Below, piece by piece: positions 52,167 to 63,808 of a stretch of 64,000 bases of DNA. Every line of letters starts with the position of its first letter. Position 1 is the first letter of the stretch. The notes under the pieces are model-generated. The model did no database searches. It saw only the letters and a program-made list of their open reading frames with translations, and was not told the DNA's origin. Both the position numbers and the translations under genes were made by a program. Origin of the DNA: Ideonella benzenivorans (GTDB lineage: Bacteria > Pseudomonadota > Gammaproteobacteria > Burkholderiales > Burkholderiaceae_C); the NCBI RefSeq assembly GCF_020387415.1, contig NZ_JAGWCB010000020.1:1-64000 (forward strand), in the 5' to 3' direction.

Positions 52167-54344
52167 TCAGAACCGACGCTTCCAGGCCAGGGTCACGGTG
52201 CGGCCACGGCCGGCGTAGTAGTCGTCGTTGGTGCCGGAGTAGTTGGCCTGGCCGTAGTAGGTGAAGTACTGGCGGTTCAGCAGGTTCTCCACGCCCAGGC
52301 TCCAGTTGCCCTGCGCGGTGTGCCAGGTGCCGGCCAGGTCCACCACGGTGTAGCCGCTGAAGTGCTCGGCCAGCGAGGTGGTGCCGGAGAGCTTGCCCTC
52401 GTTGGCGTCGCGCGGACGGAAGTGCGACAGCGTGAGCTGGCTGTCCAGCGCGTCGTTCAGGCGCCACTGGCCGCTCAGCACCAGCTTGTCCGGACCCTGC
52501 GAGCGGGCACCCAGGTCCAGGCTCAGCGGCGCGCCGGCCGACGCGGCGGTGCGGCCCCGGGTCAGGGCGTACAGGGCGTTGAGGGTCAGCCCGGGCGCGG
52601 CCCGCCATTGGCCGGTGAACTCGAAGCCCTTGACCTCGATGGGCACGCGCTGCACCGAGCCGATGCCGTTGCTGACCGTGATCTGGCTGCCCAGCGAGGA
52701 GCGCGAGTCATAGACCGAGGCGGTGAAGCTGCCGGCGCTGCCCCGCCAGGCCACCCCCAGCTCGCGGTTGTAGGTGAGGATGGGCTGCAGATCGACCAGG
52801 CTGTCCACCGACTGGCCCGCGGTCTTCACCGCGCGCAGGATCAGGCCCACGTCCGGCATGCCGAAGCCTTCGCTGTAGGACGCGAAGCTGGACCAGCCGC
52901 TGTCACCCCAGCGCCAGACGGCGCCCAGGTTCTTCACGAACTGGTCGGACCGGCGCGTGCCGCCCGCCACCTGCCGGCTGCCGTAGAAGGCCAGGGTGGT
53001 GTAGCTGTCCACGTCCAGCTGGCTGTCCTCGTGGCGCAGGCCGCCGCGCAGCGTCAGGTCGCCCCAGCTGTACTCCAGCTGGGCAAAGGGGGCCAGGCTG
53101 CGGTACTTCAGGGGCGGCACCCAGGTGCGGCCGGTCATCGTCAGGGTCTGCGAGGAGGTGTCGTGCAGCAGGTCCACGCCGGTGGTCAGTTCCAGCCCGC
53201 GCCAGCCCAGATCGGGCCGCACCCAGGTGCTGCGCAGGCCCCATTTGTCGGCATTGATCTGGCTCTGGTCTACCAGCGTGCCCACCGGGGCGATGCTGGC
53301 GTCCTGGAAGGTGGTGATGACGCCGCCGGTGTAGCGGGCGCGGAAGTCCTGCTTGAACAACTGCACCGAGGCCATGCCGCCGGCCAGGTCATCGTCGTCC
53401 CAGCCCAGGCTGGCCGAGCGGACCCGGCTGCGGGGCGGCGCCCAGGCCAGGCTGCCCTGGGCCGAGGTGGTGGGCAGGCCGGTGCTGCGGTCGCCCGGCA
53501 CGTCCACCCAGTCGCTGAAGCCGTCGGCATGGAACTGGTTGACCATCAGCTGGAACTGCTGCGAGCCCACCCGCTGGCCCAGCTTCAGGAAGCCGTCGTT
53601 GGCCGTGTGCAGGGATTCCGTGGCCAGCGTGCGCCCCTGCGCGTCGGTGCCGATGTCCTGTTCGCGACGGCCCACATACAGCAGCGCCGACCACGGGTCC
53701 TCGCCCTCGCTCAGGTGCTCCAGCATGTAGCCGGCCTTCCAGCCCTGGGTGTGGCTGCGGCCCTGGCTGCTGCCCTTGAGCTCCAGGGTCTGGTGGGTGC
53801 CGGTCTCGGTGGGCGTGCGGGTGATGGTGTTGATGATGCCGCCGGTGGCGCCCATGCCCTGCACCGCCGAGGCGCCGCTGACCACTTCGATGCGGTCGAT
53901 GATCAGGGCGTCGGCGAAATAGCCCTCGCGGCCGCCGTAGCGCAGGGGATTGGTCTGGGGAATGCCGTCGAGCAGCAGCAGGGCGTTGCGGCCCCGCAGC
54001 CCCTCGCCGAAGCTGCTGAGCTTCTGACGCGACGGCGCGTAGCCCGGCACCTGGGTGGCCAGCAGGGCGCTGGGGTCCTCGCTGACCAAGGTCTGGGTGT
54101 CGATGTCCTGCCGGCTGATCACCGCCACCGCGCCCGGGATCTTGTCCAGGGCCTTGCCGCTGCGGGTGGCCGTGACGATGACCTGCTGGGTCGACGGGGG
54201 CGCCGGATCGGCTGCAGCGCCGTCGGCGCCCGGCAGCGCCTGGGCGTGGGCCGCGGAACCCAGGGCGGCCGTGGCCAGGGCCCAGGACAGGGGGGAGGGG
54301 CGCCGCATCCGGCGGCTTCGGGCAAGGGGGCGGTGAGTCTTCAT
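52167..54344 (-). CDS. TonB-dependent outer-membrane receptor
   Basis: 725 residues from ATG 54344. Signal peptide (LSWALATAALGSAAHAQA), TonB box region QQVIVTATRSG, plug domain (ALLLLDGIPQTNPLRYGG; VVSGASAVQGMGATGGIIN) and a 22-strand barrel ending in aromatic F (TVTLAWKRRF), for outer-membrane insertion. Probably takes up a ferric siderophore. A Fur-like box lies upstream. It separates nifA and nifB, perhaps feeding iron to nitrogenase. Confidence 0.92.
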   Translation of the reverse strand: MKTHRPLARSRRMRRPSPLSWALATAALGSAAHAQALPGADGAAADPAPPSTQQVIVTATRSGKALDKIPGAVAVISRQDIDTQTLVSEDPSALLATQVPGYAPSRQKLSSFGEGLRGRNALLLLDGIPQTNPLRYGGREGYFADALIIDRIEVVSGASAVQGMGATGGIINTITRTPTETGTHQTLELKGSSQGRSHTQGWKAGYMLEHLSEGEDPWSALLYVGRREQDIGTDAQGRTLATESLHTANDGFLKLGQRVGSQQFQLMVNQFHADGFSDWVDVPGDRSTGLPTTSAQGSLAWAPPRSRVRSASLGWDDDDLAGGMASVQLFKQDFRARYTGGVITTFQDASIAPVGTLVDQSQINADKWGLRSTWVRPDLGWRGLELTTGVDLLHDTSSQTLTMTGRTWVPPLKYRSLAPFAQLEYSWGDLTLRGGLRHEDSQLDVDSYTTLAFYGSRQVAGGTRRSDQFVKNLGAVWRWGDSGWSSFASYSEGFGMPDVGLILRAVKTAGQSVDSLVDLQPILTYNRELGVAWRGSAGSFTASVYDSRSSLGSQITVSNGIGSVQRVPIEVKGFEFTGQWRAAPGLTLNALYALTRGRTAASAGAPLSLDLGARSQGPDKLVLSGQWRLNDALDSQLTLSHFRPRDANEGKLSGTTSLAEHFSGYTVVDLAGTWHTAQGNWSLGVENLLNRQYFTYYGQANYSGTNDDYYAGRGRTVTLAWKRRF

Positions 54345-54411
54345 GGGGCAGGGGTGATGACCCGGCCGCAGGGGCCTGCAGCCGGGCCGGCATGAACAGC
54401 AAGTGCACGAA

Positions 54412-54440
54412 TGTAAATGAAAATGATTTGCAATCAAATA
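54412..54440. promoter_or_regulatory. Fur-like box upstream of the TonB receptor
   Basis: A/T-rich stretch within GTAAATGAAAATGATTTGCA, similar to GATAATGATAATCATTATC, 68-96 bp before the receptor start. It stands out from the GC-rich surroundings. Confidence 0.5.
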
Positions 54441-54534
54441 AATGACTGCCACAGACAAAGGGCACCTGTTGACGCGCGTCAACGCCGCAGGCGTGCGGCG
54501 GTGGAACGGAAGGAAACAGGCCGCTTGTCGCTTT

Positions 54535-54550
54535 TGTGATGACCTGCACA
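54535..54550. promoter_or_regulatory. NifA upstream activator site for nifB
   Basis: TGTGATGACCTGCACA, a perfect TGT-N10-ACA, 56 bp before the -24 box; closer than the usual 80-150 bp but within known range. Confidence 0.7.
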
Positions 54551-54605
54551 GCGGTGGACAACGGAACAATCAACGCAAGCCATTGATTCACATGGAAAAA
54601 CTGAC

Positions 54606-54620
54606 TGGCACGGCTCTCGC
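54606..54620 (+). promoter_or_regulatory. Sigma-54 promoter of the nifB operon
   Basis: TGGCACGGCTCTCGC: GG at 54607-54608 and GC at 54619-54620, ten bases apart. The -12 box reads TCGC in place of TTGC. It lies 36 bp before the nifB start. Confidence 0.78.
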
Positions 54621-54656
54621 AATGGACTTGGCACCTGCCACCACACGAGGTGCCCC

Positions 54657-56237
54657 ATGTCCGCCAACACCACGTTCGTATCGATCGGCGATCTGAAGAA
54701 GGGTCGTCAAGCCGTCAGCGAAGTCGTCGAGACCGGAGGGGGCTGTGGCTCCACCGGCGGGGACGGCAAGGCCAGCTGCGGCACGTCCGCCGGCCCGGAC
54801 GACATGCCCGCTGAAATCTGGGACAAGGTCAAGAACCATCCCTGCTATTCGGAAGAGGCCCACCACCACTACGCCCGCATGCACGTGGCCGTGGCCCCGG
54901 CCTGCAACATCCAGTGCAACTACTGCAATCGCAAGTACGACTGCAGCAACGAATCGCGCCCCGGCGTGGTGAGCCAGAAACTGACGCCCGATCAGGCCGT
55001 CAAGAAGGTGCTGGCCGTGGCCAGCGAGATCCCGCAGATGACGGTGCTGGGCATCGCCGGCCCCGGCGACTCCCTGGCCAACCCGAAGAAGACCTTCGAC
55101 ACCATGCGCATGCTCCACGAGCAGGCGCCCGACATCAAGCTGTGCCTGTCCACCAACGGCCTGGCCCTGCCGGATCTGGTCGACGAGATCTGCAAGTACA
55201 ACATCGACCACGTCACGATCACCATCAACATGGTCGATCCGGAAGTGGGCGCCAAGATCTACCCCTGGATCTTCTGGGACCACAAGCGCGTCACCGGCGT
55301 CGAGGCCGCGCGCATCCTGCACGAGCGCCAGATGCTCGGCCTGGAGATGCTGACCGCCCGCGGCGTGCTCACCAAGATCAACTCGGTGCTGATCCCCGGC
55401 ATCAACGACGAGCACCTGATCGAGGTGAACCGCGAGGTCAAGAAGCGCGGCGCCTTCCTGCACAACATCATGCCGCTGATCTCGGAAGCCGAGCACGGCA
55501 CGGTGTTCGGCCTGACCGGTCAGCGCGGCCCGACCGCCCAGGAGCTCAAGGCCGTGCAGGACGCCTGCATGGGCGGCGCCAACCTGATGCGCCACTGCCG
55601 CCAGTGCCGTGCCGATGCGGTCGGCCTGCTGGGCGAGGACCGCTCCGAGGAGTTCACCCTCGACAAGATCGAGGAGATGGAAGTCGTCTACGACCTGGAC
55701 AAGCGCAAGGCCTACCAGGACAAGGTCGAGTCCGAGCGCCAGGCCCAGGTGGCGGCCAAGGCCGAGGCGCTGGCCGCCGCGGCCAACGACGACGGCGTGG
55801 ACCCGGACATGAAGGTGCTGGTCGCCGTGGCCACCGAAGGTCATGGCAAGGTCAACCAGCACTTCGGCCACGCCACCGAGTTCCAGATCTTCGAGGTGAG
55901 CAAGGCCCAGGCCCTGTTCGTCGGCCACCGCCGCGTCGACCTGTACTGCCAGGGCGGCTATGGCGAGGACGAGCAACTGCCCTCCATCGTCAAGGCCATC
56001 AACGACTGCCACGCCGTGCTGGTGGCCAAGATCGGCGCCTGCCCGCGCGACGAGCTGAAGGCCGCCGGCATCGAGCCGGTCGACCAGTACGCCCACGAGT
56101 TCATCGAGAAGGCCGCGCTGTCCTGGTTCACCGACTACCGCCAGCGCATCGCCAGCGGCCAGCTCGTCCACCAACCGCGCGGTGACGCGCAGATCCGGCA
56201 AGGTGCCTTCACTGGCACGGCCGAAGCGGCCGCCTGA
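54657..56237 (+). CDS. nifB: FeMo-cofactor biosynthesis protein NifB
   Basis: 526 residues. Radical SAM cysteines Cys83, 87 and 90 are in [25 protein letters not shown] and later Cys residues ([17 protein letters not shown]) bind further clusters. The C-terminal third (from about 385, [20 protein letters not shown]) is the NifX/NafY-like domain of full-length NifB. It makes NifB-co, the [8Fe-9S-C] core of FeMo-co. First gene of a long operon with its own NifA/sigma-54 control. Confidence 0.98.
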
Positions 56238-56291: not shown

Positions 56292-56486
56292 ATGGCCCTG
56301 AAGATCATCGCCTCCATGTGCACCGGCTGCTCCGCCTGCGAGCCCGAGTGCCCCAACGTCGCCATCCGTGAAAAGGGCGGCACCTTCGTGATCGACCCCA
56401 AGAAGTGCACCGAGTGCGAAGGCCAGTTCGACGCACCCCAGTGCGTGTCGGTCTGCCCGGTGGACGGCTGCATCAAGCCCGCCTGA
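56292..56486 (+). CDS. fdxN: 2[4Fe-4S] ferredoxin FdxN
   Basis: 64 residues. [13 protein letters not shown] and [18 protein letters not shown] give two [4Fe-4S] sites with the insert typical of NifB-linked ferredoxins. It is thought to supply electrons to NifB or nitrogenase. AAGGAG ahead; 54 bp after nifB. Confidence 0.94.
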
Positions 56487-56521: not shown

Positions 56522-56634
56522 ACCCGCCGGGCGGGTGCGCGGGCCGCTTGGGGCGGCCCGGCGCTGGCCCACGGGGAATGGGGCACCCGGCCCACGTTGT
56601 CCGCTTCTGACCTCTTTTGAATGACGAGCTGAAC

Positions 56635-57015
56635 ATGATCCTGCCCAACGTCACTGTCACGCCCGCCGCGGCCAAGTTCATCCGCCGCATGGTGCGTTTC
56701 TCCGAACACCCCGCCGGCGGCATGCGCCTCCTGGTGACGCCGGGCGGCTGCTCCGGCTACAGCGCCGAGTTCTCGGTGCTGGCGGCGCCGCTGGACGGTG
56801 ATGCGGAGCTGCTGCTCGGCGACGTGCGCGTGTTCCTGCCGGCCGAGAGCCGTCTGGTGCTGGACGGCGTCACGATGGATTTCAGCGAGAGCCCGACCCA
56901 TTCCGGCCTGAGCTTCTTCAACCCGGCAGCGGCGCCCTGCGCCTGCTCCAGCTCGGGGGATGCGGCCAAGCCGGCGCAGGCCACGGTCTCGCTCGATTCG
57001 CTCAAGCGCCACTGA
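56635..57015 (+). CDS. Nif-type A-domain Fe-S carrier (IscA/HesB-like)
   Basis: 126 residues from ATG 56635; a TTG six codons earlier is less likely. VTVTPAAAKFIRRMVRF, then TPGGCSGYSAEFSV and PCACSSSG carry the three cysteines. The spacing (C-A-C rather than C-G-C) and the longer tail set it apart from the IscA at 39705. It probably delivers clusters to NifB or nitrogenase. Confidence 0.85.
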   Translation: MILPNVTVTPAAAKFIRRMVRFSEHPAGGMRLLVTPGGCSGYSAEFSVLAAPLDGDAELLLGDVRVFLPAESRLVLDGVTMDFSESPTHSGLSFFNPAAAPCACSSSGDAAKPAQATVSLDSLKRH

Positions 57016-57041: not shown

Positions 57042-57653
57042 ATGACCGTCGCGACCACCGGCACCCTCGGCGTGGACTTCGATGACGCCGTGCTGGGCCT
57101 GGGCTTGCCGCCGTTGGCCGAGGCCGCGCTGCGCGAGGCCGGCGAGCACCGCAGCGATGCGCCGCGGTCCATGGCGGCGCTGATGCGGGCCCAGGCCCTG
57201 GCGCCGGAGCACCCGGCCGTGCTGATCGCGTTCTACCGCCACCACTTCTACGGCCACCGCCTCGGCCCGGCCCGCGACGTGGCCCGCCGGGCGCTGGTGG
57301 CCGGGGCCCGGGCCTTGGGCCTGCCGGCCTGCTGGCGCGACGTGCCGCGTCAAGCCCTGGCGGGCGCACGCGACGAGCCGATCACCCGGTTCTACCTGTT
57401 CACCCTCAAGGGCTATGCCTACCTGAGCCTGCGCCTGGGCGACGAGACCGAGGCCCGCGATGCGCTGGCCTTGCTGCGTCACCTGGACCCGGACGACCGG
57501 GTGGGCGGCGCCCTGGTGGAGGCGGTGCGTCAGCGCGCCCTGGTGGGCGAGGACGAGGACGCACCCAGCGCACCGCCGGCCTTCGGGGCCGCGGCCTGGG
57601 CCCGGCTGGCGCCGCAGCGTCCGTCGGGCGTTCACCCCGCGGCGCCGGCCTGA
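57042..57653 (+). CDS. TPR-like nif protein (paralogue of the gene at 36766)
   Basis: 203 residues. Helical blocks match the 36766-37257 protein: AFYRHHFYGHRLGPARDVA, GLPACWRDVPR, FYLFTLKGYAYLSLRLGDE and RHLDPDDRVGG. It has an extra N-terminal 50 residues and a proline-rich tail. Soluble, no catalytic motif. It follows the A-type carrier by 26 bp in the nifB operon. A docking or scaffold role is inferred only from the repeats. Confidence 0.78.
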   Translation: MTVATTGTLGVDFDDAVLGLGLPPLAEAALREAGEHRSDAPRSMAALMRAQALAPEHPAVLIAFYRHHFYGHRLGPARDVARRALVAGARALGLPACWRDVPRQALAGARDEPITRFYLFTLKGYAYLSLRLGDETEARDALALLRHLDPDDRVGGALVEAVRQRALVGEDEDAPSAPPAFGAAAWARLAPQRPSGVHPAAPA

Positions 57654-57667
57654 GCCCGAGGTTCGAC

Positions 57668-58519
57668 GTGAACACCACCGCCACGCCCCCCACCGCCCGC
57701 GCTACGGTCCGTCCGCCGGCCGGGGACATCCCGACGCGGGACTGGCAGGGCCTGCCGGTGGACTGTGCGCGCTGCCCACACCAGGACCTGCGGACCGAGG
57801 GCGGCTGCGAGCCCGGCCACAGCTGCATGCAGGACGCCTATGCGCGCCGCATCGACCGCTTCTTCCGTGCCCACCGCGACCTGGCCGGGCAGCACCTGGA
57901 CCATCCGTACTTCGAGGTGCGCGCCATCGCCGCGCGCTATGTCGACATCTTCCAGCTGGGTCCGCTGCGGCAGGATCCGGATGAAACGGTGCGCCTGCAG
58001 GTGGCCCTGCGCGTGCCGCAGCGCCTGCTCTCGCCGATGTGCGACGACCCGCACCGCGAGGTCCGCATCCGCGTGGCCCAGCGCATCGACACGCCCGAGC
58101 TCAGCCGCCTGATCCACGACCCGGACTACGAGGTGCGCACCGTGGTGGCCCGCCGCCTGCCCGTGGCCCTGCTGCCCCTGCTGGCCGGGGACAACGACGA
58201 GCAGGTGCGCCGCGTGGTGGCCGAGCGCCTGGAGATGCCGGCGCTGTGGCGCCTGGCGCAGGACCCGTCCGGCCGGGTGCGCCGCAGCGTGGCCGAGCGC
58301 GCGCCGCAGCCCCTGCTGTCCGCCTTTCTGACCGACCCGGACTGGGCCGTGCGCTGGACCGTGGCGCACCGGGCCGACGCCCGCCAGCAGCGCGAGTGGC
58401 TGTTGCGCCTGTCCGAGGACGCCGACCCCGAGGTGCGCGCCCAGGCGCAGGAACGTCTGGCCGAACCGACCCCCTTGTCATTGCCTGCAGGAGCGCCCCA
58501 TGGTGGACATCGACCGTGA
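57668..58519 (+). CDS. [4Fe-4S] leucine-rich-variant (LRV) repeat protein
   Basis: 283 residues from GTG 57668. An N-terminal cluster motif CARCPHQDLRTEGGCEPGHSC is followed by about eight 24-residue LRV repeats (DP..EVR..VA.R.), such as HPYFEVRAIAARY and DPDYEVRTVVARRL. The Azotobacter LRV protein has this architecture and also lies beside nif genes. Function unknown. Its end overlaps nifZ by 20 bp. Confidence 0.9.
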   Translation: MNTTATPPTARATVRPPAGDIPTRDWQGLPVDCARCPHQDLRTEGGCEPGHSCMQDAYARRIDRFFRAHRDLAGQHLDHPYFEVRAIAARYVDIFQLGPLRQDPDETVRLQVALRVPQRLLSPMCDDPHREVRIRVAQRIDTPELSRLIHDPDYEVRTVVARRLPVALLPLLAGDNDEQVRRVVAERLEMPALWRLAQDPSGRVRRSVAERAPQPLLSAFLTDPDWAVRWTVAHRADARQQREWLLRLSEDADPEVRAQAQERLAEPTPLSLPAGAPHGGHRP

Positions 58520-58835
58520 CGACGACATCATCGAGATCGCGCTGCCGCCCCGCTTCGAGATGGGCGAGCGCGTGATCAGCCGCACCGTGATCCGCAACGA
58601 CGGCACCTACACCGGCAAGGACATCGGCGAGGTGCTGGTCAACAAGGGCGACATCGGCTACGTGCGCTCGATCGGCACCTTCCTGCAGCAGTTCTACATC
58701 TACGCGGTCGAGTTCACCGACTCGGGCCACCAGGTGGGCATGCGGGCCAAGGAGCTTTGCACGCTGGACCACCTGCCCGAGGAGATCCTGGCGCAGCTGG
58801 GCGAGAAGGCCCAGCGCCTGGTCGACCTCCGCTGA
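58500..58835 (+). CDS. nifZ: NifZ, P-cluster maturation protein (copy 1)
   Basis: 111 residues. PPRFEMGERVISRTVIRNDG, then GEVLVNKGDIGYVRSIGTFLQQFYIYAVEF match NifZ, which helps form the second P-cluster of the MoFe protein. Coupled to the LRV gene by a 20-bp overlap. A second NifZ-domain gene follows. Confidence 0.92.
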   Translation: MVDIDRDDDIIEIALPPRFEMGERVISRTVIRNDGTYTGKDIGEVLVNKGDIGYVRSIGTFLQQFYIYAVEFTDSGHQVGMRAKELCTLDHLPEEILAQLGEKAQRLVDLR

Positions 58836-58871: not shown

Positions 58872-59159
58872 ATGATGGAACCCGCCCAGCCCAAGTACGA
58901 ATGGGGTCAGCGCGTGCGCGCGGTGGCCGATCTGGTCAACGACGGCAGCTTCCCCGAGGCGGCCGAGGGTGAGCTGCTGGTGCCGGCCGGCGGCATCGGC
59001 GAAATCGTCAACGTGGGCCTGCACACCGAGGCCAATGTGCCGGTCTACCTGGTCGAGTTCGGCCCGCGCCGCGTGCTGGGCGTGCTGGAAGACGAGATCG
59101 AGCTGGACGTGCCCGGTGCGCCGCGCAGCGCACCGGCCCCGGCGGGCGAGGTGGCGTGA
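58872..59159 (+). CDS. Second NifZ-domain protein
   Basis: 95 residues. YEWGQRVRAVADLVNDGSFP, then ELLVPAGGIGEIVNVGLH and VYLVEFGPRRVLGVLEDEIE fit the NifZ domain but differ from copy 1 (ending EIELDV instead of CTLDHLP). Tandem NifZ-like genes occur in some diazotrophs. Its stop overlaps the next start (TGATG). Confidence 0.88.
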   Translation: MMEPAQPKYEWGQRVRAVADLVNDGSFPEAAEGELLVPAGGIGEIVNVGLHTEANVPVYLVEFGPRRVLGVLEDEIELDVPGAPRSAPAPAGEVA

Positions 59160-59569
59160 TGGCCAGCGCCTCCTGCTCCGGTCGCCGCCCGCCCGACGAG
59201 CCTGGGCGACCCGCGGACAGCGGCAGCCTGGTGGGGGGCCAGGTCTTCGTGCTCGACCGGGTGCGCATCGAGGTCGCGCTGGAGCAGCGCAGCCGCTACA
59301 AGTACGTGCACCCCCGCGTGCTGCGCGAAGGCCTGGGCTGGAAGGTGGTCAGCCCCAACTGCTCGCGCAACATCGAGCGCGACGGTGGCGAGATCGACAT
59401 CGCCTGGCTGGTGCCCACCCAGACGCCCGACAGCGGCGTGCCCGGGGCCTGGCTGCTGCATGCGCGGGACCATGTGAATGGCTGCTGGGTGCTCAAGCAG
59501 CGTGCGCCCACGCTGGCCGCCGCGTTGGACACCCTGGTGCGCGACGAAGCGCGCGATTACTGGGTCTGA
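59159..59569 (+). CDS. DUF3024-like nif-associated protein
   Basis: 136 residues from ATG 59159, overlapping the upstream stop by one base. RYKYVHPRVLREGLGWKVVSPNCSRNIERDGGEIDIAWLVP is the DUF3024 pattern, split here as R(Y)KYV, GWKVVSPNCSRN and GEIDIAWL; a later WVLKQRAPTLAAALD fits too. One conserved cysteine (SPNCSR). Unknown function; the family occurs outside nif clusters as well. Confidence 0.65.
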   Translation: MASASCSGRRPPDEPGRPADSGSLVGGQVFVLDRVRIEVALEQRSRYKYVHPRVLREGLGWKVVSPNCSRNIERDGGEIDIAWLVPTQTPDSGVPGAWLLHARDHVNGCWVLKQRAPTLAAALDTLVRDEARDYWV

Positions 59570-59593: not shown

Positions 59594-60754
59594 ATGATTG
59601 ACCTGGACCACAACGCCACCACCCGCCCGCTGCCGGCGGTCGTCGCGGCCATGGTGCGGGCCATGGAGGGCACCTGGGCCAACCCCTCGTCGATGCACGA
59701 GCCCGGCCAGGCCGCCCGGCGCGCGCTGGCCGAGGCCCGCGCCCGTGTCGCCGCGCTGCTGGGCTGCCAGCCGGTCGAGCTGGTGTTCACCAGCGGCGCC
59801 ACCGAGGCCAACCACCAGGCCGTGCTGGGCGCACTGGCCCGCGGCCGCGCGCTGGGCCGCACCCGCTTGGTCGTGTCGGCCGTGGAACACGCGGGACTGC
59901 TGGCCCTGGTCGAGCGTCTGCAGCGCGAGGGCACACCGGTGGACCGCATCCCGGTGGATGGCGAAGGCCGGTTGGACCTGGACGCCGCGGCGCGCCTGAT
60001 CGGCCCGGACGTGGCCCTGCTGTCGGTGATGGCGGCCAACAATGAGACGGGGGTGTGGCATCCGCTGGCCGAACTCTCGGCCCTGGCCCGAGCGCAGGAG
60101 GTGCCCTTCCATGTCGATGCCACCCAGGCCGTGGGCAAGTCGCTGCTGCGCTTCGACGCCAGCGGGGCGGACCTCTGGTCCTGTTCGGCCCACAAGCTGC
60201 ACGGCCCGCAAGGCGTGGGCGCGCTGGTGGTGCGCAAGGGCCTGGCCTGGCCCGCGCTGATCGAGGGCAAGCAGGAGCGCAAACGCCGCGGCGGCACCGA
60301 GAACGGCCCCGGCATCGCCGGCTTTGCCGCGGCCGCCGAGGTGCTTGGCGCCACACTGGCCGAGGACGTGGCCCGCATGACCGACCTGCGCCAGACCCTG
60401 GAGCAGGGCCTGCTGGCCCTGCACCCGGCCATCGCGCTGCTGGGGCAGGGCGCTGAGCGCATGCCCAACACCGTGTGTGTGCGCTTTGGCGAGCGCGATG
60501 CCGAACAGGTGCTGGGCAAGCTGGAGCGGGCCGGCGTGGTGGCCAGCAGCGGCGCAGCCTGTGGCGCCGGCAGCACCCAGCCTTCCCACGTGATGCTGGC
60601 CATGGGCCTCACGCCCGCCCAGGCCAAGGCCGAAGTGCGTTTCTCGCTGGGGCGTGACACCACGGCGCAGGACATCGGCCAGGCCCTGGCCGCCGTGCGG
60701 ACCAGCGTGCTGCCCCTCTTGCTCGAAGACCAAGCCCTGGCCACCGCGGCCTGA
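59594..60754 (+). CDS. nifS: Cysteine desulfurase NifS
   Basis: 386 residues. MIDLDHNATTRPLPAVV at the start, the PLP Lys in SCSAHKLHGPQGVGAL and the sulphur-transfer Cys in SSGAACGAGS. It lacks the IscS tail, so it is NifS type. It supplies sulphur for nitrogenase clusters. No nifU is present beside it; the isc operon at 37545 may provide the scaffold. Confidence 0.95.
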   Translation: MIDLDHNATTRPLPAVVAAMVRAMEGTWANPSSMHEPGQAARRALAEARARVAALLGCQPVELVFTSGATEANHQAVLGALARGRALGRTRLVVSAVEHAGLLALVERLQREGTPVDRIPVDGEGRLDLDAAARLIGPDVALLSVMAANNETGVWHPLAELSALARAQEVPFHVDATQAVGKSLLRFDASGADLWSCSAHKLHGPQGVGALVVRKGLAWPALIEGKQERKRRGGTENGPGIAGFAAAAEVLGATLAEDVARMTDLRQTLEQGLLALHPAIALLGQGAERMPNTVCVRFGERDAEQVLGKLERAGVVASSGAACGAGSTQPSHVMLAMGLTPAQAKAEVRFSLGRDTTAQDIGQALAAVRTSVLPLLLEDQALATAA

Positions 60755-60786: not shown

Positions 60787-60999
60787 ATGAAAGTGATGAT
60801 CCGCAAGAGCGCCGCCGGTGTCCTGTCCGCCTACGTGGCCAAGAAGGACCTGGAGGAGCCCATCGTCTCGCACGAGAAACCCGATCTCTGGGGCGGCACC
60901 GTGACCCTGGCCAACGACTGGGTGCTGGCCCTGCCGGAGATGCCCGAAGGCACCAGCCTGCCGATCACCGTCGAGGCCCGCCGCCTCTCCGGCGACTGA
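60787..60999 (+). CDS. nifT: NifT/FixU
   Basis: 70 residues. MKVMIRKSAAGVLSAYVAKKDLEE, with the end ITVEARRL, is NifT. The role is undefined. AGGAG-like CCGGAG lies before the start; nifS is 32 bp upstream. Confidence 0.93.
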   Translation: MKVMIRKSAAGVLSAYVAKKDLEEPIVSHEKPDLWGGTVTLANDWVLALPEMPEGTSLPITVEARRLSGD

Positions 61000-61010
61000 A
61001 GGGGACCGCC

Positions 61011-61292
61011 ATGAACGCCTCCGCCGACGTGCGCTCCCCCACCGCCTCGCTGGCCGAGGCGCTTGCCTTGGCCGACAGCGCCAACACCGTGCGCGAGGCG
61101 GCCCTGCTGCTGCGCGAGCGCTTCGCCCCGCTGCGGGTGATCGTCGTCGATGCCTTCGACATGCGCGGCGAAACCCCGGCCGCCAGCGGCGAACGCCGCC
61201 TGCTCTGGGGCGCCGTCAGCGACGGCCACTGCTGGCAGATCAGCACCGACCTGTCGGCCTTGTCCGGCTTCTATCTGGCCGACAAGGCCTGA
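61011..61292 (+). CDS. Small nif-operon protein of unknown function
   Basis: 93 residues from ATG 61011, 11 bp after nifT (AAGGGG ahead). Features: an amphipathic start, LRERFAPLRVIVVDAFDMRGE and LLWGAVSDGHCWQISTDLSALSGF, with a single cysteine. No membrane segment or known motif. Its place in the operon suggests a nitrogenase accessory protein. Confidence 0.7.
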   Translation: MNASADVRSPTASLAEALALADSANTVREAALLLRERFAPLRVIVVDAFDMRGETPAASGERRLLWGAVSDGHCWQISTDLSALSGFYLADKA

Positions 61293-61315: not shown

Positions 61316-62605
61316 ATGAACAGCCCCGCCACCCTGATCGCCGATGCGGCGCACGTCACCCCGGTGCCCGGCGGCAATGCCGAGGGCAGCGATCCCTTTG
61401 CCGCCATCGGCCAGGACGGCCTGGTGGCCGACGAGCAGCCCGAGAGCGATGCGCTGTTGGGCGACGACTGGATCGTGCTGTCCGACCCAGACCTCTCGGC
61501 GCTGGAGCTCAAGCTGGTCGAGACAGCCATGTCGGGCTCGCGCCTGACGGCCGGTCCCATGGTCGAGCGCTTCGAGCAGAGCTTTGCCCGCTGGGTGGGG
61601 CGCGCGCATGCGGTCTCGGTGGCCAGCGGCACCCTGGGCACCTGGCTGGCGCTGCGGGCCCTGGGCATCGGCCCGGGCGACGAGGTGATCGCCTCGCCGC
61701 ACGGCTGGCACCAGGTGGCGCAGGCGGTGAGCCTGGCCGGCGCCACGCTGGTGTTCTCGGACATCCATTACTGGACGGGTTGCCTGGACCCGGTGCGGGC
61801 CGAGGCCCGCATCACCCCGCGCACCAAGGCCATCCTGGCCGGCAACATCAACGGCCACCCGGCCGCCTGGGGCCCGCTGCGCGCACTGGCCGACCGGCAT
61901 GGCATCGCCCTGATCGAGGACTCCACCGAGGCCCTGGGCTCGCGTTACCAGGGCCGCCAGGTCGGCAGCTTCGGGGATCTGGCGGTGTTCGATTTCTCGC
62001 AACCCAGCGCCCTGTCCTGCGGCGATGGGGCCATGGTCGTCACCGACGACGACCGTCTGGCCATCGAGCTGCGCTACCTGCGTCAGCGTTCCATCAAGGA
62101 CCGCAACTCGCTGTCGGTGGGCGCCCGCGTGCCGCTGCAGGCCGGCATCAGCGAGCTGACCGCTGCCATGGGCGTGGGGCAGCTGGCCCGCATCGACGAG
62201 CTGCTGGAACGCCGCAAGGTCGTGGAGGCCCTCTACCGCGACCTGATGAACAGCTTCGAGGGCATCAAGCCGCCCTACATCGCCGACGAGGTCGACGAGG
62301 TGCACTGGATGGTCTGGCAGGTGCACCTGGGCACCCGCTTCACCGCCAGCGCCCGCAAGCAGATTGTCGACGACCTCAACCGCGAGCACATCGAGGCGGC
62401 GCCCTTCTGCAAGCCGCTGCATCAGCAGTTCTTCTACCAGCAGCAGGGCTGGAAGCGGGGCGACCTGCCGCTGGCCGAGCGCATCGGCGACCGCGCCCTG
62501 GCCCTGCCCTTCCACGCCCAGCTCGACGAGGACGCGGTGCGCTTCATCGTCGGGGCGCTCAAGGACATCGCCACCAACATCGGGGCCGGCGTGCCCATCT
62601 ACTGA
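61316..62605 (+). CDS. DegT/DnrJ/EryC1-like protein lacking the PLP lysine
   Basis: 429 residues. The DegT fold is clear (GSRLTAGPMVERFEQSFARW; ASGTLGTWLALRALGIGPGDEV; IEDSTEALGS). The lysine that binds PLP should be the seventh residue of the FSF...K segment; here the segment is FDFSQPSALSCGDGAMV with Ser231 at that place. So ordinary transamination is unlikely. A 50-residue N-terminal extension is also extra. Start at ATG 61316 is 23 bp after the previous gene. Function unknown. Confidence 0.8.
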   Translation: MNSPATLIADAAHVTPVPGGNAEGSDPFAAIGQDGLVADEQPESDALLGDDWIVLSDPDLSALELKLVETAMSGSRLTAGPMVERFEQSFARWVGRAHAVSVASGTLGTWLALRALGIGPGDEVIASPHGWHQVAQAVSLAGATLVFSDIHYWTGCLDPVRAEARITPRTKAILAGNINGHPAAWGPLRALADRHGIALIEDSTEALGSRYQGRQVGSFGDLAVFDFSQPSALSCGDGAMVVTDDDRLAIELRYLRQRSIKDRNSLSVGARVPLQAGISELTAAMGVGQLARIDELLERRKVVEALYRDLMNSFEGIKPPYIADEVDEVHWMVWQVHLGTRFTASARKQIVDDLNREHIEAAPFCKPLHQQFFYQQQGWKRGDLPLAERIGDRALALPFHAQLDEDAVRFIVGALKDIATNIGAGVPIY

Positions 62606-62618
62606 CCCGGAGATGCCC

Positions 62619-63464
62619 ATGACCTTCACCACCCTGGACCACCTGCCCGACGATGTCGCGGCCGGTCTCATCGCCGGCTCGCTGGCCCCCTACCTGGGCC
62701 CCGGCATGCTGGGCCTGGTGGCCGACCTGCCGGTGCCCGGCGACCCGCTGGCCCTGGCGACCGTGCTGACCACCCGCAACAGCGTGCCCGGCAAGATCAA
62801 GCACCGCCTGACCCAGGCCGCCCAGTTCATCGAGAACTTCAAGCACCGCAAGACCCTGGTCAGCGGCATGGACCTGGCCTTTGCCGCTCTGCCCGCGCCC
62901 AGTGCGCTGCACCGTTGGGTCGCCAGCCTGAAGGCCCCGCTGATCGTGGACGCCTGGTACGACGACACCATGCGCGGCGCGCTGAGCGCGCGGGCGGACT
63001 GGGCCGAGGTGCAGGGGCTGTCGCAGAGCGAGCACTTCGGCACCTGGTTCGGCTGGTATGGCGCCGATGGCCAGCCGCTGACCGAGGAGCCGGTGGACAT
63101 GGCCACCGTGTACTACAAGCCCTGGGGCGGCCACCTGCCGGCCAGCAACTACCTGGTGTCCGACACGGACCATGTCGAGGTGCTGACCGAGATCGACATC
63201 CAGACGCCCATCCCACCGGTGGTGCAGGCCCGCCGCGCCCGCCTGGGCTTCGTGTTCCTGGGCTGCCGCTTCAACGACCAGCTGCCGCGCACTTTCGCGC
63301 GCCAGATCATGAAGCGCTCCGGCGGCCCGCACTACGCCGTCCTGCCCGACGAGCCCACCCGCATGGAGGCCCGCTTCCTGGAGGAGCAGGGCGTCACCCG
63401 CATTGCGCTGCCGTTGGCCGAGGTGGCCGCACAGCTCACCCGAGGCGTGGCCGTCCCGGCCTGA
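62619..63464 (+). CDS. SIR2-like family protein in the nif operon
   Basis: 281 residues from ATG 62619 (GGAG six bases ahead; an ATG two codons earlier is too close). IAGSLAPYLGPGML resembles the SIR2_2 N-terminal loop, and ALPAPSALHRWVASLKAPLIVDAWYDD and GFVFLGCRFNDQLPRTFARQI match the core of SIR2-like proteins. The histidine/asparagine NADase residues are not evident. Could bind NAD; perhaps senses or modifies nitrogenase. Assignment moderate. Confidence 0.65.
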   Translation: MTFTTLDHLPDDVAAGLIAGSLAPYLGPGMLGLVADLPVPGDPLALATVLTTRNSVPGKIKHRLTQAAQFIENFKHRKTLVSGMDLAFAALPAPSALHRWVASLKAPLIVDAWYDDTMRGALSARADWAEVQGLSQSEHFGTWFGWYGADGQPLTEEPVDMATVYYKPWGGHLPASNYLVSDTDHVEVLTEIDIQTPIPPVVQARRARLGFVFLGCRFNDQLPRTFARQIMKRSGGPHYAVLPDEPTRMEARFLEEQGVTRIALPLAEVAAQLTRGVAVPA

Positions 63465-63499: not shown

Positions 63500-63808
63500 A
63501 TGACCACCCTGACCATCCTGCCTTCGGGCACCACCCTGGACGTGAGCGAAGGCGCCAACCTGCTGCAGACCCTGCTGGCGGCTGGCGAGAAGCTGGTGAG
63601 CAAGTGCGGCGGCCAGGCCAAGTGCGGCGCCTGCCACGTGTTCATCAAGGAGGGTCGCAAAGGCGTCTCCAAGATGACCTCCGAGGAAAACGCCAAGCTC
63701 GACAGCCTGGTGGGCGTGGGCAGCAAGTCCCGCCTGGCCTGCCAGGTCAACATCCTGGGCACCGAGCCGGTCACCGTGGAGTTGCTGGGCGCGCTCTCCG
63801 GCTTCTGA
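63500..63808 (+). CDS. [2Fe-2S] plant-type ferredoxin
   Basis: 102 residues. KCGGQAKCGACHVFI and RLACQVNI provide the CX6CX2C..C ligands of plant/[2Fe-2S] ferredoxins as in nif-linked FdxD-like proteins. AAGGAG precedes ATG 63500. Probable electron donor to nitrogenase or to the flavoprotein that follows. Confidence 0.9.
   Translation: MTTLTILPSGTTLDVSEGANLLQTLLAAGEKLVSKCGGQAKCGACHVFIKEGRKGVSKMTSEENAKLDSLVGVGSKSRLACQVNILGTEPVTVELLGALSGF

Follow-up and report, generated by a model that had tools for sequence, protein, structure and literature searches.

A DegT-family protein without the PLP lysine in the nifB-nifT region of diazotrophs: a candidate accessory factor of nitrogenase maturation

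Analysis of a 64,000-nucleotide stretch of the Ideonella benzenivorans genome (contig NZ_JAGWCB010000020.1, positions 1 to 64,000; hereafter the window) revealed a gene of the DegT family that stands among nif genes and whose product carries a serine where aminotransferases of this fold carry the lysine for pyridoxal phosphate (PLP). We propose that the product is a pseudo-aminotransferase maintained by selection, probably no PLP enzyme, that serves as a binding or assembly factor in nitrogenase maturation, a reading to which we assign a probability of about 0.6. Judged by their sequences, this protein and its relatives appear to form a branch of pseudoenzymes within the DegT family.

The 429-aa product (P0001; 61316-62605, + strand; assigned from the open reading frame, Pfam, alignment and a model) belongs to the DegT/DnrJ/EryC1/StrS family by sequence family and predicted fold, and its reading frame, start, stop and strand as given in an initial annotation were borne out. 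Pfam DegT_DnrJ_EryC1 (PF01041) matched residues 61-415 (E=4.3e-88), and the nearest solved relatives were the perosamine synthetases 3dr4 and 3bn1 (phmmer 1.7e-53 and 2e-53, respectively), the former also being matched by profile at 1.3e-71. An AF2 model (pLDDT 70.1, pTM 0.72; low confidence at residues 1-58, 259-274, 370-372 and 424-429) matched perosamine synthase with a Foldseek E of 3.3e-29, and the same enzyme was the best match by VIA-align (Z 43.0, rmsd 2.6, 349 residues). The likeness to GDP-perosamine synthase of Caulobacter (3bn1/3dr4) thus extends over the fold of these 349 residues, with about 31-33% identity, and includes the Asp and the aromatic residue of the PLP site; the Lys-less family differs in having no Lys, Asp for the FSF Ser and mostly Gln for the Asn of the partner subunit, and in having nif genes as neighbours. 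Among the NCBIfam sugar-transaminase equivalogs the best was PseC, at 211.8 bits below its curated cut-off of 423.5, and the protein also scored under the curated cut-offs of ArnB, LegC, DesI and RffA/WecE.

Relatives were sampled from 299 genomes of the window's family (E<=1e-70; 24 with a match) and, with an 11-row profile, from 399 genomes of the order (E<=1e-100; 32 matches), 369 of the class (E<=1e-100; 8 matches) and 398 of the phylum (E<=1e-90; 6 matches), samples that overlap and each of which contains the window's genome. The set of 70 rows used below comprises 69 different sequences (L032 is identical to L009). Outside it are a near-copy (L008), repeats (L014, L042, L043), three further profile matches (the second copy in G345, G549 and G430) and the outgroup (L010-L013 and L015-L018).

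The residues on which the argument turns are the following:

61988-62008, + strand: FDFSQPS motif, residues 225-231, read from the translation
61991-61993, + strand: codon of the invariant Asp226, at the FSF Ser position, by alignment
62006-62008, + strand: codon of Ser231, at the PLP-lysine position, by alignment
62576-62602, + strand: C-terminal NIGAGVPIY, with N421, G423, A424, G425, I428 and Y429 invariant in 70/70 rows, by alignment

Both the translation and the alignment with 3bn1 upheld the placement of Ser231, the last residue of FDFSQPS, opposite the PLP Lys of perosamine synthetase (FSFFGNK); 3dr4, titled a K186A mutant, has Ala in this column. What the initial annotation had noted for one gene is, across the sequences compared, a trait of the whole family: position 231 was Ser in 46, Gly in 16, Ala in five, Leu in two and Gln in one of the 70 rows and Lys in none, no ColD-like His occurred there, and in 0/70 rows did residues 219-244 include any Lys. 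Copies on plasmids had Ser at this position in Paraburkholderia sprentiae, Methylococcus sp. EFPC2 and Paraburkholderia aromaticivorans and Leu in Bradyrhizobium sp. BWA-3-5; the annotated ones are labelled aminotransferase. A sequencing error or an oddity of one genome was ruled out by the 70 relatives without Lys. The claim made at the outset, that the protein cannot be a normal aminotransferase, is supported by the lack of Lys at this site and close to it in 70/70 relatives and has nearly all the certainty that sequence can give.

The surroundings of position 231 are far from random. Asp202, Glu205 and Asn177 were invariant in 70/70 rows, position 131 was Trp in 66/70 and Phe in 4/70, Thr106 was retained in 61/70, and most members kept the SGT loop, a feature of the PLP site; we take Asp202 to be the residue facing the pyridine nitrogen and W131 to be the stacking aromatic. 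The FSF Ser position, occupied by Ser in 3bn1 and in 7/7 paralogues compared (four from the window's genome and three from elsewhere), was Asp226 in 57/57 rows of the alignment made with 3bn1 and the paralogues and in 70/70 rows of the family set, and the position of the cross-subunit Asn was Gln in 59/70. In ArnB-type enzymes the FSF Ser and this Asn presumably contact the PLP phosphate. Position 231 itself, with five different residues, lay at the 62nd percentile of variability. A strongly constrained pocket around a drifting catalytic position is what would be expected if an enzyme had been turned into a binding protein, and the alignment indicates that the site of this family is rebuilt rather than merely broken. 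In the genome to which the window belongs, four DegT paralogues were detected, three with Lys and one (L018) with His, and a quick tree separated the 70 rows from the eight Lys- or His-bearing outgroup proteins with 98% SH-aLRT, a separation that is weak because long branches meet.

The gene lies in the following series:

54535-54550, + strand: NifA-box-like TGT-N10-ACA upstream of nifB (pattern scan; position only)
54606-54621, + strand: sigma54-like site upstream of nifB, one mismatch from the pattern used (position only)
54657-56237, + strand: nifB (TIGR01290, 3.3e-205)
56292-56486, + strand: fdxN (domain searches)
56617-57015, + strand: HesB/IscA-like gene (domain searches)
57042-57653, + strand: ORF203 (domain searches)
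57668-58519, + strand: FeS-binding LRV repeat protein (domain search)
58500-58835 and 58872-59159, + strand: two nifZ genes (domain search)
59156-59569, + strand: DUF3024 protein (domain search)
59594-60754, + strand: NifS-like cysteine desulfurase with Lys201 and Cys323 kept (domain search and alignment)
60787-60999, + strand: nifT/fixU (Pfam NifT, 1.3e-28)
61011-61292, + strand: small open reading frame, 93 aa, directly upstream of the DegT-like gene
61316-62605, + strand: Lys-less DegT-family protein
62619-63464, + strand: SIR2-like protein, 281 aa (Pfam SIR2_2, 1.5e-15)
63500-63808, + strand: 2Fe-2S ferredoxin (domain search)

The assignment of the gene to a nifB operon was right as to its setting, all genes from nifB to the 2Fe-2S ferredoxin being on the + strand in this order, and they probably form one transcript. 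The small open reading frame had no Pfam match; a Bradyrhizobium gene in a comparable position encodes DUF6129. Scanning for promoters gave no exact sigma54 pattern (0.4 expected), ten sigma54-like sites with up to two mismatches (9.8 expected) and five NifA-box-like sites (6.5 expected), counts that match expectation, so that only their position upstream of nifB favours the two sites listed. Between a nifA-like gene and nifB, a TonB-dependent-receptor-like gene, named from its translation, lies on the minus strand (52167-54569). After the ferredoxin, from ~63850 to beyond 64000, FAD-dependent oxidoreductase-like and AAA-ATPase-like genes, named by reading, follow in the same direction; they were matched in 16/58 and 6/58, respectively, of the loci described below, whose flanks were often too short to reach them.

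Presence of the gene followed that of nifB closely within the window's family: in the 299 genomes the gene was found in 24, nifB (TIGR01290) in 24 and both in 23. One genome (G052) carries the gene and has a nifB truncated where its 8.1 kb contig ends; another (G248) has nifB without the gene and is a real exception, since ~5.3 kb past fdxN holds none of the operon genes. In a sample of 230 genomes of the order, 18 of the 36 with nifB were on the carrier list of the 399-genome search, within which the 230 may not all fall, and tblastn revealed no copy in the regions fetched around nifB from the remaining 18. Since half of the nifB genomes of this sample are not among the carriers, nitrogen fixation as such does not require the gene. 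Two carriers (G424 and G494) had no nifB match at E<=1e-10; in G424 (flanks in L120) nifT, the NifS-like gene and the SIR2-like gene nevertheless stand beside the DegT-like gene.

Comparison of loci with and without the gene suggested which neighbours belong with it. Among 58 carrier loci, which have finite flanks, are in many cases related and include near-copies (e.g. L003/L083 and L009/L095), the fetched stretch contained nifT in 58, the SIR2-like gene in 57, fdxN in 54, the NifS-like gene in 53 (51 without one opposite-strand and one displaced copy), nifZ in 52-53, DUF3024 in 50 and the 2Fe-2S ferredoxin in 48; nifB lay inside it in 47. The DegT-like gene stands several kb from nifT and the SIR2-like gene, across nifB, in L129 and L131. 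Genomes without the gene gave 19 nifB loci, of which seven had nifT within the fetched stretch; these held the SIR2-like gene in 6/7, the NifS-like gene in 0/7 and DUF3024 in 0/7. For the last two genes, a Fisher test against the carrier loci, uncorrected for descent, gave p values of roughly 5e-6 to 9e-6. The 12 without nifT, kept out of this comparison, had DUF3024 in 0/12 and a NifS-like match (40-42% identity) in three (L147, L150 and L157). The NifS-like and DUF3024 genes thus co-vary with the DegT-like gene and seem to make up a module with it that some loci have and others lack, outside which stand the SIR2-like gene and nifT, found with or without the DegT-like gene. Three of the seven nifT-bearing loci lacking the gene (L140, L144 and L151) have a protein of ~900 aa between nifZ and nifT; that of L140, the one scanned, has dCache and CheW domains. 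In Paraburkholderia sprentiae WSM5005 (L135, 2675-3190 and 8036-10495), the DegT-like gene is kept in a stretch with the NifS-like and SIR2-like genes as fragments only and with NifA-like pieces.

The SIR2-like protein encoded directly downstream may likewise have lost its chemistry. A profile alignment related it to the NAD hydrolase ThsA (E 0.006); a single-sequence PDB search gave no SIR2 match, only one unrelated chain (E 0.61). We take the Asn of TTNYD and the His of HG to be the catalytic residues of ThsA. In a set made up of the window's copy and those of 55 loci (L003 and L009 were left out), the Asn column was Trp113 in the window and Trp in 56/56 rows, the chain of entry 8bto having Ala there (TTAYD), and the His column was Trp169 in the window and Trp in 17, Ile in 18, Leu in 17, Phe in two and His in two of the 56 rows. 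Unlike ThsA, then, the neighbour is without the Asn and nearly always without the His, and this loss of the catalytic columns makes NAD hydrolysis or deacetylation by the copies examined unlikely. The NifS-like PLP enzyme encoded close by, which serves as a control taken from these loci, has retained its Lys and catalytic Cys in 53/53 rows (the window and 52/58 loci). Its AF2 model was weak (pLDDT 57.6), and the Foldseek matches to KomBC, AVAST5, ThsA and DSR2 were given no weight beyond the profile. SIR2 genes of nif clusters appear in the consulted parts of several published reports, including PST_1325 of Pseudomonas stutzeri (PMC11332353), a gene of Rhodovulum (PMC9412634), rcc03262 of Rhodobacter capsulatus, whose product is listed beside NifT and was not found in a nifA double mutant (PMC6925177), and ZMO1821 of Zymomonas, which increases under N2 fixation and was interpreted as a probable deacetylase (PMC8600466, PMC8594446). 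The deacetylase reading of the Zymomonas protein may need checking.

These results are consistent with a model in which a DegT-fold protein gave up PLP transaminase chemistry and was retained under selection for a part in nitrogenase maturation, most likely that of the metallocluster or cofactor. The former PLP/sugar pocket would now accommodate a different ligand or a protein partner, and the product would work by binding, whether as a carrier, as an assembly platform or as a sensor, in concert with the products of neighbouring genes. It is the gene neighbourhood alone that points to maturation. A scaffold role, one of two possibilities raised in the initial annotation, is plausible. As a tentative and more specific version, two retired enzymes, the PLP-less aminotransferase and a sirtuin without NAD chemistry, might make up a hitherto unrecognised maturation factor of the nifB-nifT region of diazotrophs, whose former cofactor pocket would carry or sense an intermediate in metallocluster assembly.

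The other possibility raised at the outset, that PLP is bound without a Schiff base, fared less well. In such a case the protein could bind PLP or PMP non-covalently, either trapping a PLP-amine adduct as a sensor or performing lysine-free chemistry like that of the PMP-dependent dehydrases ColD and E1 (RfbH), which share the DegT-family fold without the usual Lys. Lys-to-Ala mutants of the fold can hold PLP, to judge from the titles of 4oca (ArnB K188A) and 3nys (WbpE K185A), and with Asp202, the stacking aromatic W131, the SGT loop and in most members T106 still present, some form of B6 binding is possible. However, the invariant Asp226 for Ser, at a position that we assume adjoins where the PLP phosphate would lie, and the Gln for Asn argue against ordinary PLP binding. 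ColD/E1-type dehydrases carry His in place of the PLP Lys, whereas the Lys-less family has S/G/A/L/Q at this site and no conserved base, the ColD-type His being seen instead in paralogue L018. We therefore consider PLP or PMP binding of this kind unlikely. A still less likely role is that of an inactive subunit in a hetero-oligomeric PLP enzyme, where it would supplement or regulate an active PLP partner. The adjacent NifS-like protein is the best partner candidate: it co-varies with the gene (51-53/58 versus 0/7 loci) and keeps Lys and Cys as stated above, and a DegT-family chain, 8y96, is titled a heterooligomeric aminotransferase. Yet the NifS-like protein belongs to Pfam Aminotran_5, a family other than DegT, and the hetero-oligomeric PLP-enzyme precedents known to us pair close relatives. 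Moreover, six loci (L110, L111, L124, L125, L130 and L131) have the gene without an operon NifS-like gene, and the three NifS-like matches noted above occur in loci without it. The parallel is with SPT1/LCB1 of serine palmitoyltransferase, the counterpart of the Lys-bearing SPT2/LCB2, described in the consulted part of one report as a PLP-family protein that lacks the conserved PLP lysine and is needed for the activity of the complex (PMC6148460); it is of a different family, and the window has no DegT-family partner gene beside the Lys-less one.

Two simpler accounts have very little in their favour. An ordinary transaminase using another lysine, the finding named beforehand in the initial annotation as the refutation of its claim, was sought and is most improbable: K318 is the sole Lys invariant in 70/70 rows, but it aligns with a Thr in the 'TKPH' stretch of 3bn1, in the C-terminal part and distant from the motif in sequence, and the motif region is free of Lys throughout. 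A decaying, functionless relic is hardly credible. A frame-broken copy does occur in a nif cluster of Bradyrhizobium sp. BWA-3-5, a peanut nodule isolate (L137, 8874-9990), and one stop codon each was found in L036, L046, L055 and L058, by open-frame lengths at the N-terminal edge. Nevertheless, all other listed matches are open, the 70 rows share 45 invariant residues, and in the family sample the gene follows nifB. Its dN/dS was 0.081 (L002), 0.337 (L003), 0.216 (L082) and 0.435 (L085), compared with 0.110-0.219 for nifB in the same four pairs; these values are rough because of the high GC, and the short nifZ gave 1.06 in one pair. Conservation and dN/dS refute the relic as a general account and indicate that the gene is under purifying selection.

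A DegT gene in a bradyrhizobial nif region was already listed in 2011. BRADO5411 of the photosynthetic Bradyrhizobium ORS278 is given in Table 3 of that report as 'putative Aminotransferase, DegT/DnrJ/EryC1/StrS family', with the same kinds of neighbours as here, namely 2Fe-2S ferredoxin, NifZ, LRV and SufA-like genes (PMC3899966). It is called an aminotransferase there and is likened to the Lys-less gene here by gene order alone, which makes it a probable orthologue. According to the consulted part of the same report, BRADO5411 is among the genes specific to nod-independent photosynthetic bradyrhizobia, the cluster shows up-regulation in Azorhizobium bacteroids, and an operon of the nearby BRADO5414, 5416, 5418 and 5424 is conserved in nod-independent photosynthetic bradyrhizobia and Azorhizobium and not in rhizobia without free-living nitrogen fixation (PMC3899966). 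The missing lysine of a nif-linked DegT protein found no mention in the literature searched, which was largely without subscription papers, and the Lys-less gene is not dealt with in the consulted parts of Azoarcus expression and Tn-Seq papers or of PMC8305402, PMC3912193 and PMC9009326.

In sum, the active-site residues suggest that neither the aminotransferase nor the deacetylase label fits as a catalytic function for the members seen here. The Lys-less DegT protein is conserved, appears catalytically dismantled and, within one bacterial family, follows nifB; its probable orthologue BRADO5411 is listed, in the part of the report consulted, with nif genes said to be missing from rhizobia without nitrogen fixation in the free-living state (PMC3899966). 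These properties make it a candidate for a missing accessory factor, one that would bear on moving nif genes into new hosts.
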